From the NCBI GenBank assembly GCA_021324735.1, contig JAJPIO010000006.1, forward strand, positions 79,667 through 143,666: 64,000 nucleotides of DNA, written 5' to 3'. A program made the position numbers and the translations under genes. Below, piece after piece: positions 4,497 through 11,371 of the stretch. How positions within the stretch are numbered: the stretch's first letter is position 1; each line of letters begins with the position of its first letter. A model generated the notes under the pieces. It saw nothing but the letters and a program-made list of their open reading frames with translations, searched no databases and was not told the DNA's origin. This DNA comes from Bacteroidota bacterium (GTDB taxonomy: Bacteria; Bacteroidota; Ignavibacteria; Palsa-1295).

Positions 4497-4577
4497 GTCC
4501 CTTTTTAGGACTTCAGGCCTAATTAAACTTCTTTCTGGTGACTTACGTCACCGGCTACTACTGACCGTCCCTTCGGA
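4497..4577. repeat. Cluster of short palindromes upstream of iscU
   Basis: Three stem-loops lie side by side: GTCC/GGAC at 4497-4511, GGTGAC/GTCACC at 4537-4552 followed by GGCTAC, and GTCC/GGAC at 4567-4578. The GGCTAC tail is the same tail found on the palindromes at 3591-3612 and 60883-60902, so these look like members of one dispersed family with changing stems. Confidence 0.55.
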
Positions 4578-5289: not shown

Positions 5290-6522
5290 TTAGTGTGCTG
5301 CCCACGCAACCGACTTAAGGTCGATGCCCATCTTCGCCATCTCGTAGAGCGGCGACATATCACGCAAATGCTTCACGGCTTCCACGACTTGTTTCACCGT
5401 GTAATCACACTCTTCCTGCGTATTGAAACGCCCGATACCAAAACGGATCGACGTATGAGCTAAGTCCTCCCCAACGCCAAGCGCCTTGAGTACATAGCTC
5501 GGCTCGAGGCTCGCTGAGGTACAGGCAGAACCTGACGATACGGCGATGTCCTTAATGCCCATCATTAGCGCTTCACCTTCCACGAAGGCAAAACTAACAT
5601 TCAAGTTACCGGGCAAGCGGCGATCCGGCTTTTCAATCGGATCCGGACCGTTGATGTAGATCTCATCAAGCTCGGCTTGGAAATCCATCCACATTTTATC
5701 GCGCATGCCTTGAACGCGCTTCGTCTCGGTTGGCATCTCCTCGATACAAATCTCGAGTGCTTTCGCAAGACCGACAATACCTGGTACGTTCAGCGTACCC
5801 GAACGCATACCGCGTTCGTGTCCGCCGCCATCCATTTGCGACGCCAGTTTAACGCGCGGGCTCTTCTTGCGAACGTAGAGTGCACCGACACCCTTCGGTC
5901 CATAGATCTTATGACCCGAGAGCGACGCAAGATCGACATTCATCTTCTGGACATCGAACGGCACCTTACCGATCGACTGTGTTGAATCCGTGTGGAAGAT
6001 GACTCCCTTTTCGTGGCAAAGCTTTCCTATCGACTCGATATCCTGAATGACGCCGATCTCGTTATTAGCATGCATGATCGTAACGAGCACCGTTTTATCG
6101 GTGATCGCGTCACGCAGCATATCGAGATCGACAAAACCTTCTTTCCCGACCGGCAAATACGTCACACGCAAGCCACGGCGCTCGAGCGCCTTGCACGTAT
6201 CGAGCACAGCCTTGTGCTCTGTGGTGAGCGTGATAATGTGATCGCCCTTTGAAGCGTACATCTCTGCGATACCTTTGATCGCAAGATTATCCGACTCCGT
6301 CGCACCACTGGTGAATACGATCTCTTTCGGATCGGCATTGATCGACTTGGCGATCGTTTCGCGCGCCCAATCGACCGCTTCTTCAGCCTTCCAGCCAAAC
6401 TCGTGATTGCGACTTGCGGCATTACCGAAATACTCGATAAAATATGGACGCATGGCCTCGAAGACCCGCTCGTCCATCCGAGTGGTCGCGTTGTTGTCTA
6501 AGTATATGGGCAGTTTTACCAT
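5290..6522 (-). CDS. iscS: Cysteine desulfurase IscS
   Basis: A 410-residue class V aminotransferase-fold PLP enzyme that takes sulfur from cysteine for Isc[11 protein letters not shown] holds the PLP lysine (residue 205), and [17 protein letters not shown] holds the catalytic cysteine (residue 334) on the long flexible loop of IscS-type enzymes. TTEHKAVLD carries the PLP-stacking histidine. I use the ATG at 6522; a TTG two codons upstream is also open. It follows iscR after a 249-base gap filled with palindromes. A second desulfurase gene is at 10220-11371. Confidence 0.95.
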
Positions 6523-6572
6523 CGTCAAAAAAATCTACATTTTGCAGTGACTACGATACCCGTAGTTACAAA

Positions 6573-6765
6573 GTCCCAAAGGGACGGAATGTCAATAGGC
6601 CGGGGACGTTAGTCCCCGGATGGCGATTCCGTTTTGATCTCTGAGTCCCGGAGGGACGAAAGGAATCTCACAATAACCTTTCGTCCCTTCGGGACTAAAC
6701 CCAGCTTTCAACTTTTACTTCCGTGGACTAACGTCCACGGCTATTTCCTTTTGTCCCTATGGGAC
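6573..6765. repeat. Array of six short palindromes between iscR and iscS
   Basis: Four 13-base palindromes of form GTCCC-NNN-GGGAC lie at 6573-6585, 6645-6657, 6683-6695 and 6753-6765. Two 20-base palindromes of form CCGkGGAC-N4-GTCCmCGG lie at 6600-6619 and 6721-6740. The second and third small ones are embedded in a larger inverted pair (6644-6663 against 6677-6696, one mismatch in 20). The array could form several hairpins in the mRNA between the regulator and the biosynthetic genes. Confidence 0.75.
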
Positions 6766-6771
6766 AATATT

Positions 6772-7182
6772 TTAAAGCAATTGGGCTACGGTCATCGAAC
6801 TCATGAGCTGTTCCATCGCGCCCTGAAATGCGTGCATCGGCCCCTTGATCGTGCAAACGCCTTCCCGGTGACAGCATTCGTCGCTCGTCGAGGTACACTC
6901 GGTGATCGACGTCTCTTTCTCCAGCGCATTTACGATTCGCGTAAGCGAGATCTGGCTCGGCGCCATCATGAGTGCATAGCCGCCGCGCACTCCCTGAAAC
7001 GAGGAGATAAGTCCATCCCGCTTGAGCTCCTGCATGATCTTAGCAAGCAGATCGTACGGCACATTGCACTCGTCCGATATCTCGCGGACGGTCGCAGCGG
7101 ATTGCCCAGTTGCCTGACCGCGTTTGGCCAGAAACTGTAGGGCAACCAAGCCATACTCCACCCGCTTCGATAACCTCAGCAT
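6772..7182 (-). CDS. iscR: Rrf2-family regulator IscR
   Basis: A 136-residue winged-helix regulator of the Rrf2 family. The N-terminal domain (residues 1-75) contains the GVRGGYALM wing motif. Cysteines C96, C103, C104 and C110 lie in the loop that binds a [2Fe-2S] cluster in IscR, though the spacing differs from E. coli (C92, C98, C104). Being first in the ISC cluster, it most likely represses the locus when clusters are sufficient. The ATG at 7182 is the only good start. Confidence 0.9.
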   Translation of the reverse strand: MLRLSKRVEYGLVALQFLAKRGQATGQSAATVREISDECNVPYDLLAKIMQELKRDGLISSFQGVRGGYALMMAPSQISLTRIVNALEKETSITECTSTSDECCHREGVCTIKGPMHAFQGAMEQLMSSMTVAQLL

Positions 7183-7422: not shown

Positions 7423-7983
7423 TTATTGTTCTTCGAATACCGCGTTACTGTCAATCGCTGTTCTTATGTTGGGCGGAATCGAATCGGGGTAGCGGGCAAA
7501 CTGACTGATGAAGTTGTAGTCTTCCGGTGTCGATTGCGGAAAGACCATATCGGTGTCTTTAAGGAGAGTGCCTCCCCAGAAGCCAAGTACGCCTCCAGCG
7601 AGTCCACCAGCTACCGCACCGAGTGTTATTCTGGTGCCGCCGCGAGAGGCCAGTTTTGCGGAATCGAATGAGCCGCCTCCGACAACGAATATTCCGGCTG
7701 CAATACCAACGAGTGCCCCGACCACCGCTCCTGCTCCCTGACTTTGAGCGGTGCTTCTGCCGAATACTCGAAGCGTATCGACGAGCGAATAATCGAGCAG
7801 CATCAGTTGGGCCTTATCGAGCGTCTCGACGTGATCGAGCACCAGCCAGTCAGTATCGACGGTCACTAGCCTGCCACCGACGTTCGTACCGTCAGTGAGC
7901 GTGATATCGACATCGGATGCCTTCTGCGATTCGCATGACGGCAAAAAGAGGAGCAAGAAGAGAAGAAGAATTCGGGGTCTCAT
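7423..7983 (-). CDS. Lipoprotein with glycine-zipper segments
   Basis: A 186-residue protein with a signal peptide and lipobox LPSC (Cys17). An N-terminal beta-rich domain is followed by two glycine-rich hydrophobic stretches (about residues 83-103 and 120-141) typical of glycine-zipper proteins that insert in or stabilise the outer membrane. The C-terminus is polar. I recognise no specific family. It sits alone, facing away from the sigma-factor operon. Confidence 0.8.
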   Translation of the reverse strand: MRPRILLLFLLLFLPSCESQKASDVDITLTDGTNVGGRLVTVDTDWLVLDHVETLDKAQLMLLDYSLVDTLRVFGRSTAQSQGAGAVVGALVGIAAGIFVVGGGSFDSAKLASRGGTRITLGAVAGGLAGGVLGFWGGTLLKDTDMVFPQSTPEDYNFISQFARYPDSIPPNIRTAIDSNAVFEEQ

Positions 7984-8052: not shown

Positions 8053-8088
8053 CACGATTAAACTTTGTCCCCCCGAGCGTTGTCTTTT
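8053..8088 (+). promoter_or_regulatory. Putative ECF promoter of the sigma-factor gene
   Basis: CACGATTAAACTT at 8053-8065 is followed after 16 bases by GTCT at 8082-8085. The identical 13-mer with the GTCT box 15 bases later occurs ahead of the next gene (8797-8828). The layout (AAACTT-type -35, GTCT -10) resembles promoters read by RpoE-like ECF sigma factors. Confidence 0.6.
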
Positions 8089-8134
8089 ATATAACGCGTC
8101 GTAACTGCCCGAATATCGATCCCGAAAAGAACGG

Positions 8135-8779
8135 ATGGCCTATCGCCCCGAATACCAAACGCTAGCAGATGAAGAACTTGTACGCCTGTTTCAGGCGGCG
8201 GATGCTGGTTCACAGCGTTCTGAGCAGGACGCGATCTTCACGACGCTCGTCGAGCGATACCAAAAGCGTATTTATTTTTCTGCAAAGAAAATGGTCCACG
8301 GAGACCATGACGAGGCCGATGAGATCACACAGGAAACATTCGTAAAAGCTTATCAAGCGCTAAAATCTTTTCGGAGTGAGTCGAAACTATATACGTGGCT
8401 GTATCGCATAATGATGAATGCGGCGATCCAAAAGTCACGCAAGAAAAAAGTACGAGAATTTTTCGGATTGGATAGCGTAAAGGAGTTGGCGGAAGAAGGT
8501 ATCGAACCGGAAGATCGACTTCTTAAATTGGAAACGACCCAACTCATCGAGGAAGCTATTGGGACCCTGCCACCCAAGCAGCAACGCGTATTTATGATGC
8601 GTTTCTACGACGAAATGCCCTATGAGGACATCGCAACGATCATAGGGACCAGCGTAGGCGGCCTAAAAGCCAACTATTTTCATGCGGTCAAGAAAATCGG
8701 TGAATATCTGCAGGCTTCCGGTAAAGTTATGACCACCGAAGATAGCGATTTTGCTGAGTTTTCCGGTGGCTTAAGTTAG
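8135..8779 (+). CDS. ECF RNA polymerase sigma factor
   Basis: A 214-residue sigma-70 family protein lacking regions 1 and 3. Region 2 covers about residues 30-105, with the DEADEITQETFVKAYQAL core-binding helix and YTWLYRIMMNAAIQ. Region 4 covers about 145-195, with LPPKQQRVFMMRFYDEMPYEDIA and an ending typical of the -35 recognition helix. It is followed by a one-pass membrane protein and an exported sensor-like protein, the usual layout for an envelope-stress ECF system. A shared promoter motif upstream suggests it activates its own gene. Confidence 0.93.
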   Translation: MAYRPEYQTLADEELVRLFQAADAGSQRSEQDAIFTTLVERYQKRIYFSAKKMVHGDHDEADEITQETFVKAYQALKSFRSESKLYTWLYRIMMNAAIQKSRKKKVREFFGLDSVKELAEEGIEPEDRLLKLETTQLIEEAIGTLPPKQQRVFMMRFYDEMPYEDIATIIGTSVGGLKANYFHAVKKIGEYLQASGKVMTTEDSDFAEFSGGLS

Positions 8780-8796
8780 CTAAATGATTCGAATAT

Positions 8797-8830
8797 CACG
8801 ATTAAACTTGAAGTGAGACTGTGCGTCTCA
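8797..8830 (+). promoter_or_regulatory. Putative ECF promoter of the anti-sigma gene
   Basis: The 13-mer CACGATTAAACTT (8797-8809) is repeated exactly from 8053-8065, with GTCTCA at 8825-8830 after 15 bases. A start near 8836 would leave a leader of about ten bases containing the ribosome site AGAGG just before the ATG at 8847. Confidence 0.6.
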
Positions 8831-8846: not shown

Positions 8847-9461
8847 ATGAAGAGATCTGAAGAACCAAAGGACATTCAAAAGCTGACGGAAGAAATCCGC
8901 AAGCTTGGTGTGCCTTACTCTTCCGAAGAGCCGGAACCTCTCTTTTGGGCAAACCAGCGCGTCCGCATTATGGACCGCATTTCAGGTACTCAAAAACCTG
9001 CTTCGATCACCGATCAGGTTATTGGGTGGGTGTCAGGCCACGTCATGGGGACAAGTATTGCTGGGGCGGCGTTAGCAATCTTGATCGCTGCCGCAATAGT
9101 CTTTAACCCACTCGGTAACGGGTCCAGACAAATTGCAATGGCTCCACAAACTTCGTCAAGTGCTTCTGTGGTAAAACCTGCCTCGCCGCAAGTACCAGAA
9201 AAGCCACCAGTGGAAAAGGAGACTATCGAAGAGAGTATCGCCCAGGTTCAGGGACACGCGCAGCAAACTAAAGCGGGGGCGGATCATCAATTGGCGATGC
9301 GCCATCATAATGCAAAGCCTTCTGTAGAAATGGCTGCGTTGACAGATGAAGTTAGTGCACCCGTTCTTAGTTCATCGGATGTCGAGCATCCGGTGAGCCT
9401 TGAAGATCTTTCGCAGCCGGAGCTCGAGGATGTGCTTCATAGCATCCAGAGTTCAGAATAA
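8847..9461 (+). CDS. Probable membrane anti-sigma factor
   Basis: A 204-residue protein with a cytoplasmic N-terminus of about 67 residues, one membrane helix (about 68-88) and a polar periplasmic C-terminus rich in Ser, Pro and Gln. The segment PLFWANQRVRIMDRI near 31-45 resembles what is found in membrane anti-sigma factors paired with Bacteroidota ECF factors. No zinc-binding HxxxCxxC motif is present. The anti-sigma role is inferred from gene order and topology. An AGAGG ribosome site lies 4 bases before the start. Confidence 0.75.
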   Translation: MKRSEEPKDIQKLTEEIRKLGVPYSSEEPEPLFWANQRVRIMDRISGTQKPASITDQVIGWVSGHVMGTSIAGAALAILIAAAIVFNPLGNGSRQIAMAPQTSSSASVVKPASPQVPEKPPVEKETIEESIAQVQGHAQQTKAGADHQLAMRHHNAKPSVEMAALTDEVSAPVLSSSDVEHPVSLEDLSQPELEDVLHSIQSSE

Positions 9462-9491
9462 GATAAGAATTTGTTAGGTATAGTTACTTCC

Positions 9492-10082
9492 ATGAAATTC
9501 GTTCAATATCTTGCAGTCATACTTAGCCTGATGATAGCATCAGTGGCGGGTTATGCGCAGGAATCGCTGCAGGAACGTCAGGCGGACCAGCAGGCGATCA
9601 AGCAGGAGCTCGTCCAGAAAATCGAACAGATCAAGTACGAGAAAATAAAAACAGCACTCGGACTGGACGACGAATCAGCAAAGAAGTTTTTCGAGACGTA
9701 TAAACCTGCCGAAAAAGACATCCAGGGATTAGTTAAGCAACGGAACGACGAGCTCAAGAAGCTCGCAGAAATGATGAACGGAGCAAAGACCGATGCCGAT
9801 GTCGACCCAGAGATGCAGAAGATTCGGGACTTGAATCAGCAGATATCGAATCGCGAACAGCGGCTCGATTCCGACTTAAAGCCGATCTTATCTCCACGTC
9901 AGCGCGCTCGCCTGCTCATGTTCGAGCACGAGTTCAATCAACGCGTCCGAGAGCAGTTAGCCAAGCGTGCTAAGAATGGACAACTGCAGGCCCTTCGCCG
10001 CCAGATAGCGCAGCAGCGCCTAAAGAACCGGTTGCTTAAGCAAAAGAACCAGGCAAAAGGTAATGGCTTGGAGCATCCATAA
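9492..10082 (+). CDS. Exported Spy/CpxP-like coiled-coil protein
   Basis: The start is placed at the ATG at 9492, which gives a clean signal peptide ending near AGYAQ (residues 1-22). The mature part is almost wholly helical, charged and Gln/Lys-rich, with an ILSPRQRARLLMFEHEFN segment resembling the LTxxQ region of Spy/CpxP-type periplasmic chaperones and metal sensors. As the third gene of the ECF module it may sense or buffer envelope stress. The very basic C-terminus is unusual for a periplasmic protein. Confidence 0.8.
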   Translation: MKFVQYLAVILSLMIASVAGYAQESLQERQADQQAIKQELVQKIEQIKYEKIKTALGLDDESAKKFFETYKPAEKDIQGLVKQRNDELKKLAEMMNGAKTDADVDPEMQKIRDLNQQISNREQRLDSDLKPILSPRQRARLLMFEHEFNQRVREQLAKRAKNGQLQALRRQIAQQRLKNRLLKQKNQAKGNGLEHP

Positions 10083-10219: not shown

Positions 10220-11371
10220 GTGATTTATCTTGATAATAGTGCGACGACAGCCATTGCTCCGGAAGTACTGGAAGCAATGTTGCCCTATCTTCAAGTGGAA
10301 TATGGCAACGCTTCAAGTGTTCACTCGCTGGGAAGTAAAGCTCGCGTTGCGTTAGAAGAGGCCCGAGAGACGATCGCTCGCTTTATCAATGCTGAACCTC
10401 GAGAGATCGTCTTTACATCGGGAGGTTCGGAGTCCAACAATGCCGCGATCAAAGGTACGCTCTTTCATGCCGCTCTTTCGAATAAAGCGCTGAGCGACTT
10501 GCATGCTATTACGAGCCCGGTCGAGCATCATGCCGTGCTTGAACCGCTCGAGTGGATGTCAAAATTCGGCGTGAGCATTAGCTACGCTCCCGTTGATGAG
10601 TTTGGCCGCGTAATAGTGCCTGCGGCGCAAGAGCTGTTTTATACCAAGACCACTCTCGCCTCTTTTATGATGGTCAATAACGAAACTGGCACCATCAATC
10701 CGATCCGCGATCTTGCAGAAGCAATAAAAGGAAACTCAAACGCGATCTTTCATTCGGATGCTGTTCAGGCACTTGGGAAAGTAAAGATCGATGTAAAAGA
10801 TCTGGGCGTTGATCTACTCTCTCTTTCTGCACATAAAATTCATGGGCCCAAAGGTATTGGTGCCCTATATATCAAAAGTGGAACACCCTGGGAGCCATTC
10901 ATCCACGGAGGATCGCAGGAGCGTAATCGCAGAGGAGGCACCGAAGCGACGGCATTGGCTATCGGCTTTGCAAAAGCCGTAGAGTTGTTGAGCGGTCACA
11001 AGACCGAACTGCACATCCTCCATGGCTATCTTCTTTCGAGACTCCAGGCTGTTTCCGGCGTCATTCTAAACTCCGCGACGGGCGACGCATCCGTCAATGA
11101 GATCGTAAACTTCAGCTTTACGCCGGAAATCCTTGGTCAGTTGGATGCGGATGCACTTATTATCCGATTCGATATGGAAGGCATCGCGGTATCTAATGGT
11201 GCAGCGTGTACGTCGGGTAGCCAGCAGCCCTCTCATGTGCTGTTAGCACTTGGCAAATCCAGGGACATAGCGACAAAGTCGATCCGTGTCTCGCTCTCTC
11301 GTTACAACACCTTGTCGGATATCGACCGCTTTATCGAAGCCCTTCGCCGAATTATTCCGCAAGATCAGTGA
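10220..11371 (+). CDS. Second cysteine desulfurase (NifS/IscS family)
   Basis: A 383-residue PLP enzyme. SAHKIHGPKG holds the PLP lysine (K206), and SNGAACTSGSQQPSHVL the catalytic cysteine (C330). VEHHAVLEPL carries the cofactor-stacking histidine. It starts with GTG. It is shorter than IscS at 5290 and outside the ISC cluster, so it may serve another sulfur acceptor such as tRNA thiolation or cofactor synthesis; the sequence does not decide this. Its 3' end overlaps the convergent phosphatase gene by 20 bases. Confidence 0.92.
   Translation: MIYLDNSATTAIAPEVLEAMLPYLQVEYGNASSVHSLGSKARVALEEARETIARFINAEPREIVFTSGGSESNNAAIKGTLFHAALSNKALSDLHAITSPVEHHAVLEPLEWMSKFGVSISYAPVDEFGRVIVPAAQELFYTKTTLASFMMVNNETGTINPIRDLAEAIKGNSNAIFHSDAVQALGKVKIDVKDLGVDLLSLSAHKIHGPKGIGALYIKSGTPWEPFIHGGSQERNRRGGTEATALAIGFAKAVELLSGHKTELHILHGYLLSRLQAVSGVILNSATGDASVNEIVNFSFTPEILGQLDADALIIRFDMEGIAVSNGAACTSGSQQPSHVLLALGKSRDIATKSIRVSLSRYNTLSDIDRFIEALRRIIPQDQ

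Follow-up and report, generated by a model that had tools for sequence, protein, structure and literature searches.

In Phocaeicola vulgatus, the CirY-CirZ-Spy operon reported in 2026 comprises co-transcribed genes for an ECF sigma factor, an anti-sigma factor and a Spy-type protein, and expression of sigma and spy rises when the anti-sigma gene is deleted, showing the system to be autoregulated (PMC13114119). The gene trio considered here, located in a 64-kb window (the whole 64,000-nucleotide stretch analyzed) of an Ignavibacteria genome, shows the same gene order. It is likened to CirY-CirZ-Spy by gene order alone, and this shared order places the present case within an already known kind of system. 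The trio differs, however, in originating from another class of the phylum, in having a second predicted promoter before the anti-sigma gene, and in having predicted unlinked targets that include a DUF1800-DUF1501 gene pair. CnrYXH of Cupriavidus metallidurans likewise combines an ECF sigma factor and an anti-sigma factor with a periplasmic helical-hairpin protein, although its gene order is not that of the trio. CnrH matches the sigma profile of the window, and CnrX is a weak fold match of the third protein.

The Escherichia coli sigma-E promoter (GGAACTT-N16-GTCTAA) has the same geometry as the two predicted promoters of this locus (P1 and P2, below), and sigma-E/RseA shares a membrane anti-sigma factor and envelope targets with the module described here. 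However, the sigma factor encoded in the window scored only 99.7 bits on the E. coli-type RpoE equivalog (TIGR02939, cut-off 236). E. coli spy, moreover, is under Cpx/Bae rather than sigma-E control (PMC13114119). The E. coli gene cpxP is also Cpx-controlled.

The literature searched contained no paper joining TTAAAC with an ECF sigma promoter, and none joining ECF sigma factors, anti-sigma factors and Ignavibacteria. The predicted promoter code is newly defined, the putative second promoter is a genus-level feature, and the proposed link to DUF1800-DUF1501 is unreported in that literature. Together they provide a concrete, testable candidate promoter code and predicted targets for an ECF factor from a class whose members are mostly uncultured, and would place the uncharacterized DUF1800-DUF1501 pair and DUF6600 proteins in an envelope-stress response. 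They also indicate that the combination of sigma factor, anti-sigma factor and Spy-type partner recurs as a unit, as in Bacteroidales.

Proteins encoded by the trio

The first gene (8135-8779, + strand) encodes an ECF sigma factor of 214 aa with sigma2 and sigma4 domains only (Pfam Sigma70_r2, 2.5e-16; Sigma70_r4_2, 5.1e-15; NCBIfam TIGR02937, 1.5e-31), and E. coli sigma-E was matched by profile (1.7e-36). This domain content is characteristic of ECF (group IV) factors, as is an adjacent anti-sigma gene, which neighbors the sigma gene in all family loci. Further features of the group, namely an AAC-type -35 element, a CGT/GTC-type -10 element and positive autoregulation, were recognized here by sequence comparison only.

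The second gene (8847-9461, + strand) encodes an anti-sigma factor of 204 aa, with an N-terminal anti-sigma domain, one transmembrane stretch and a probable periplasmic C-terminal part. The protein's own sequence had no Pfam match and its predicted model was of too low a quality for a fold search (pLDDT 65.5); a profile built from 32 relatives matched the anti-sigma domain of RsiW (3.9e-6) and, at 0.0013, chain 3hug_B, which partners the sigma factor in a solved structure. Zinc-finger residues of the zf-HC2 type are kept in some Ignavibacteria relatives (zf-HC2 is present in L048) and are absent from the anti-sigma family of the window.

The third gene (9492-10082, + strand; alternative start TTG at 9471) encodes an exported all-helical protein of 196 aa, and occupies this position in 12 out of 12 family loci as well as in many distant ones. 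Its AlphaFold (AF2) model is confident (pLDDT 93.6) and shows a helical hairpin bundle of the CnrX/ZraP/Spy-like type, for which the nearest sensible Foldseek matches, CnrX and ZraP, were weak (E 0.2-0.8). The initial annotation had described a trio with a Spy-like exported protein. The third protein is exported and helical, but it had no Pfam match to LTXXQ, the domain of the Spy family, and the LTXXQ/Spy-like gene of the predicted regulon is instead unlinked to the trio. In contrast to the CnrX metal sensors, which have conserved His/Met ligands, none of the invariant or nearly invariant columns of the third protein is a His, Met or Cys, and hence there is no sign of a metal site. Its role may be that of a chaperone or of a co-sensor.

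Repeated promoter-like sites and their conservation

An exact copy of CACGATTAAACTT is present at 8053-8065 and another at 8797-8809, both on the + strand, with no third copy in the 64-kb window. The first precedes the sigma gene and is followed after a 16-base gap by GTCT (8082-8085); the second precedes the anti-sigma gene and is followed after a 15-base gap by the same four bases (8825-8828). This layout, noted initially, is exact. When the two intergenic stretches were dinucleotide-shuffled 2000 times, a shared 13-mer never arose, and a shared 11-mer arose in 0.45% of the shuffles. Exact 13-mer repeats as such are not rare, with 71 on the same strand across the 64 kb, and it is the placement of the pair, not mere repetition, that gives it significance.

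Comparison with related genomes indicated which parts of the layout are maintained. The same three genes occur in the same order in all 12 available family loci, and ATTAAAC(C/T)...TC lies upstream of the sigma gene in 11/11 family loci with upstream DNA (one reads GTTAAAC), with TC 18 or 19 bases after TTAAAC. These comparison genomes are largely MAGs and, being related, are not independent, though their spacers have diverged. Given that the inter-box DNA differs among family genomes, the boxes are selectively maintained. Of the 13-mer/GTCT layout, relatives keep only ATTAAACTT and GTC; some members of the genus retain CACG at the first site, whereas at the second it is not kept, so that the full 13-base identity is partly coincidence.

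We therefore delimit two predicted ECF promoters on the + strand. P1 (8053-8085), the putative autoregulatory promoter of the sigma gene, has its -35 element (ATTAAACTT) at 8057-8065 and its -10 element (GTCT) at 8082-8085. P2 (8797-8828), predicted to serve the anti-sigma and third genes, has the corresponding elements at 8801-8809 and 8825-8828. A P2-type site, consisting of ATTAAACTT and (G)TC spaced as at the family sites upstream of the sigma gene, lies between the sigma and anti-sigma genes in 7/7 genus loci. No second site was seen in other genera of the family, where the two genes overlap or nearly abut, or between the sigma and anti-sigma genes at eight distant loci. The predicted second promoter is thus a genus-level addition.

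More widely, TTAAAC-N17/18-GTC was located upstream of the sigma gene in 44 out of 55 more distant loci, mostly from Ignavibacteria (spacer N17 in 28 and N18 in 16), the exact motif being absent in the other 11. Dinucleotide shuffles of these 55 upstream regions yielded a mean of 0.125 matches and a maximum of 2, and the motif was present in only 11 of the 2778 pieces taken from elsewhere in these loci (0.4%). TTAAAC was also the commonest 6-mer upstream of the distant sigma genes (49/55) with nothing assumed beforehand. These results strongly support (A)TTAAAC-N17/18-GTC(T), in the form ATTAAAC(T/C), rather than the 13-mer, as the conserved predicted signal, and constitute strong comparative evidence that the sigma factor is autoregulated from this putative promoter. 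ECF promoters as a rule carry AAC at -35 and CGT at -10 (PMC8103513), and the box layout agrees with this. A chance repeat, which could draw on the many repeated 13-mers of the window and on raw motif counts equal to the control (below), is scarcely conceivable, since members of the family and of the class at large carry the motif at orthologous positions; this reading is refuted provided that the comparison with relatives is sound.

As the signal recurs before the sigma gene class-wide, and before unlinked genes for exported proteins, it is very probably the regulator's own on-switch. Footprinting in the genus, family and class supports the earlier proposal of a shared ECF promoter recognized by the encoded sigma factor. 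The motif could alternatively act as promoter for a different sigma factor encoded in the genome, or be common to several ECF factors. Cross-regulation of this kind is favored by the presence of 18 other ECF-like genes in the source genome, and overlap between ECF promoters is widespread in other bacteria. Such overlap has been raised for flavobacteria (PMC9723704). Yet the motif precedes orthologs of this sigma gene across the class and none of the 18 paralogs in the source genome (0/18), making cross-regulation improbable. We consider it more improbable still that the repeat is bound by some separate regulator or serves as a normal promoter for the primary sigma factor. TTAAAC does resemble a -35 hexamer, and TATATAA follows GTCT at P1, but TATATAA is not at the 17-base spacing, and diverged relatives conserve GTC at N17/18, rather than TATAAT, as their second block. 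The motif also lacks dyad symmetry, keeps a single orientation relative to the gene, and lies close to the start.

Predicted regulon

The initial annotation had offered the 13-mer/GTCT pattern as a search pattern for the regulon, which proved unusable alone: AAACTT-N15-17-GTCT returned 10 matches genome-wide versus 21 for the reversed control. Similarly, ATTAAACY-N16-18-TCT returned 91 matches versus 82 for the control over 13 genomes, and looser and stricter forms were likewise not enriched over control. Because raw counts equal those of the control, the motif alone carries little information and defines no regulon; promoter position and orthology must be added. Matches ≤150 bases upstream of a same-strand gene made up 13 of 30 sampled matches, compared with 4 of 33 for the control. 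The motif background was 2 in 1990 pieces of 150 nt, and the motif was found upstream of none of 127 unrelated genes. Promoter position combined with conserved downstream genes is what separates the putative signal from noise. One further match in the window (4522-4549, + strand) is flanked by minus-strand genes on both sides and was regarded as a chance occurrence.

The best-supported predicted targets in the source genome are P1, P2, the DUF1800-DUF1501 pair and the unlinked Spy-like gene. A site lies upstream of the Tat-exported DUF1800 gene, which is followed by the DUF1501 gene, in 11 out of 12 genomes having the gene (G009 is without the site). In two genomes (L120 and L259 in G009 and G012), the motif was also observed ahead of a TatA-like gene, at a distance of 217-341 bases, and the DUF1800 protein is itself Tat-exported. 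For the Spy/LTXXQ-like gene, a site is present in 9/12 genomes, including the source genome (G000:C15:345099-345126), and missing in G006, G009 and G012, two of these at contig edges. The source-genome protein (L279) scored 19.9 bits against LTXXQ (Pfam gathering cut-off 24.3), and the protein L333 of family f13 scored 24.6, above the cut-off. A strict pattern had 14 matches versus 2 for the control in f13, with sites preceding sigma, LTXXQ/Spy-type, lipoprotein and DUF6600 genes among them. A lipoprotein gene with an upstream site was additionally found in four genomes of two other genera. Two source-genome lipoproteins (L140 and L156) are weak candidates, as their sites are not kept in most orthologs, and an exported protein with ASH-type Ig-like domains (L353) is a candidate member without conservation support. 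The occurrence of the same signal before genes for exported and Spy-type proteins supports the envelope-stress role suggested earlier.

Proposed mechanism and genomic neighborhood

Taken together, it is very likely that both repeats are promoters of the ECF sigma factor encoded between them, in an autoregulated envelope-stress module of sigma factor, anti-sigma factor and periplasmic helical protein. The mechanism we infer draws on the parts found here and on ECF systems in general (PMC8103513). In unstressed cells, the sigma factor would be held by the membrane-bound anti-sigma factor, and an envelope signal, which the exported helical protein may sense or tune, would free it. RNA polymerase carrying the freed sigma factor would then start at P1, transcribing all three genes and creating positive feedback, and at P2, transcribing the anti-sigma and third genes only. 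Transcription from P2 could supply extra inhibitor and third protein and thereby limit and shut off the response. Free sigma factor would also turn on the unlinked genes for exported proteins (Spy/LTXXQ-like, the DUF1800-DUF1501 pair and lipoproteins), the whole module serving as an envelope-stress (extracytoplasmic protein-quality) response. More tentatively, the regulon may be class-wide in Ignavibacteria, with the widespread DUF1800-DUF1501 pair as a core target, the helical protein acting as a CnrX-like, metal-free periplasmic co-sensor of the anti-sigma factor, and the genus-specific P2 adding negative feedback.

Upstream of the trio, a divergent gene (7423-7983, minus strand), whose predicted product is a lipoprotein containing glycine-rich stretches, has no TTAAAC on its own strand in the shared upstream region. 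Imperfect inverted repeats on GGGAC/GTCCC (6599-6741; arms 6599-6620/6720-6741 and 6644-6663/6677-6696) are flanked on one side by a cysteine-desulfurase-like gene (5290-6528) and on the other by an Rrf2-type regulator gene (6772-7182). A second cysteine-desulfurase-like gene (10220-11371) follows the trio, and the same neighbor adjoins the trio in L043, L048, L049, L050, L052, L053 and L054.
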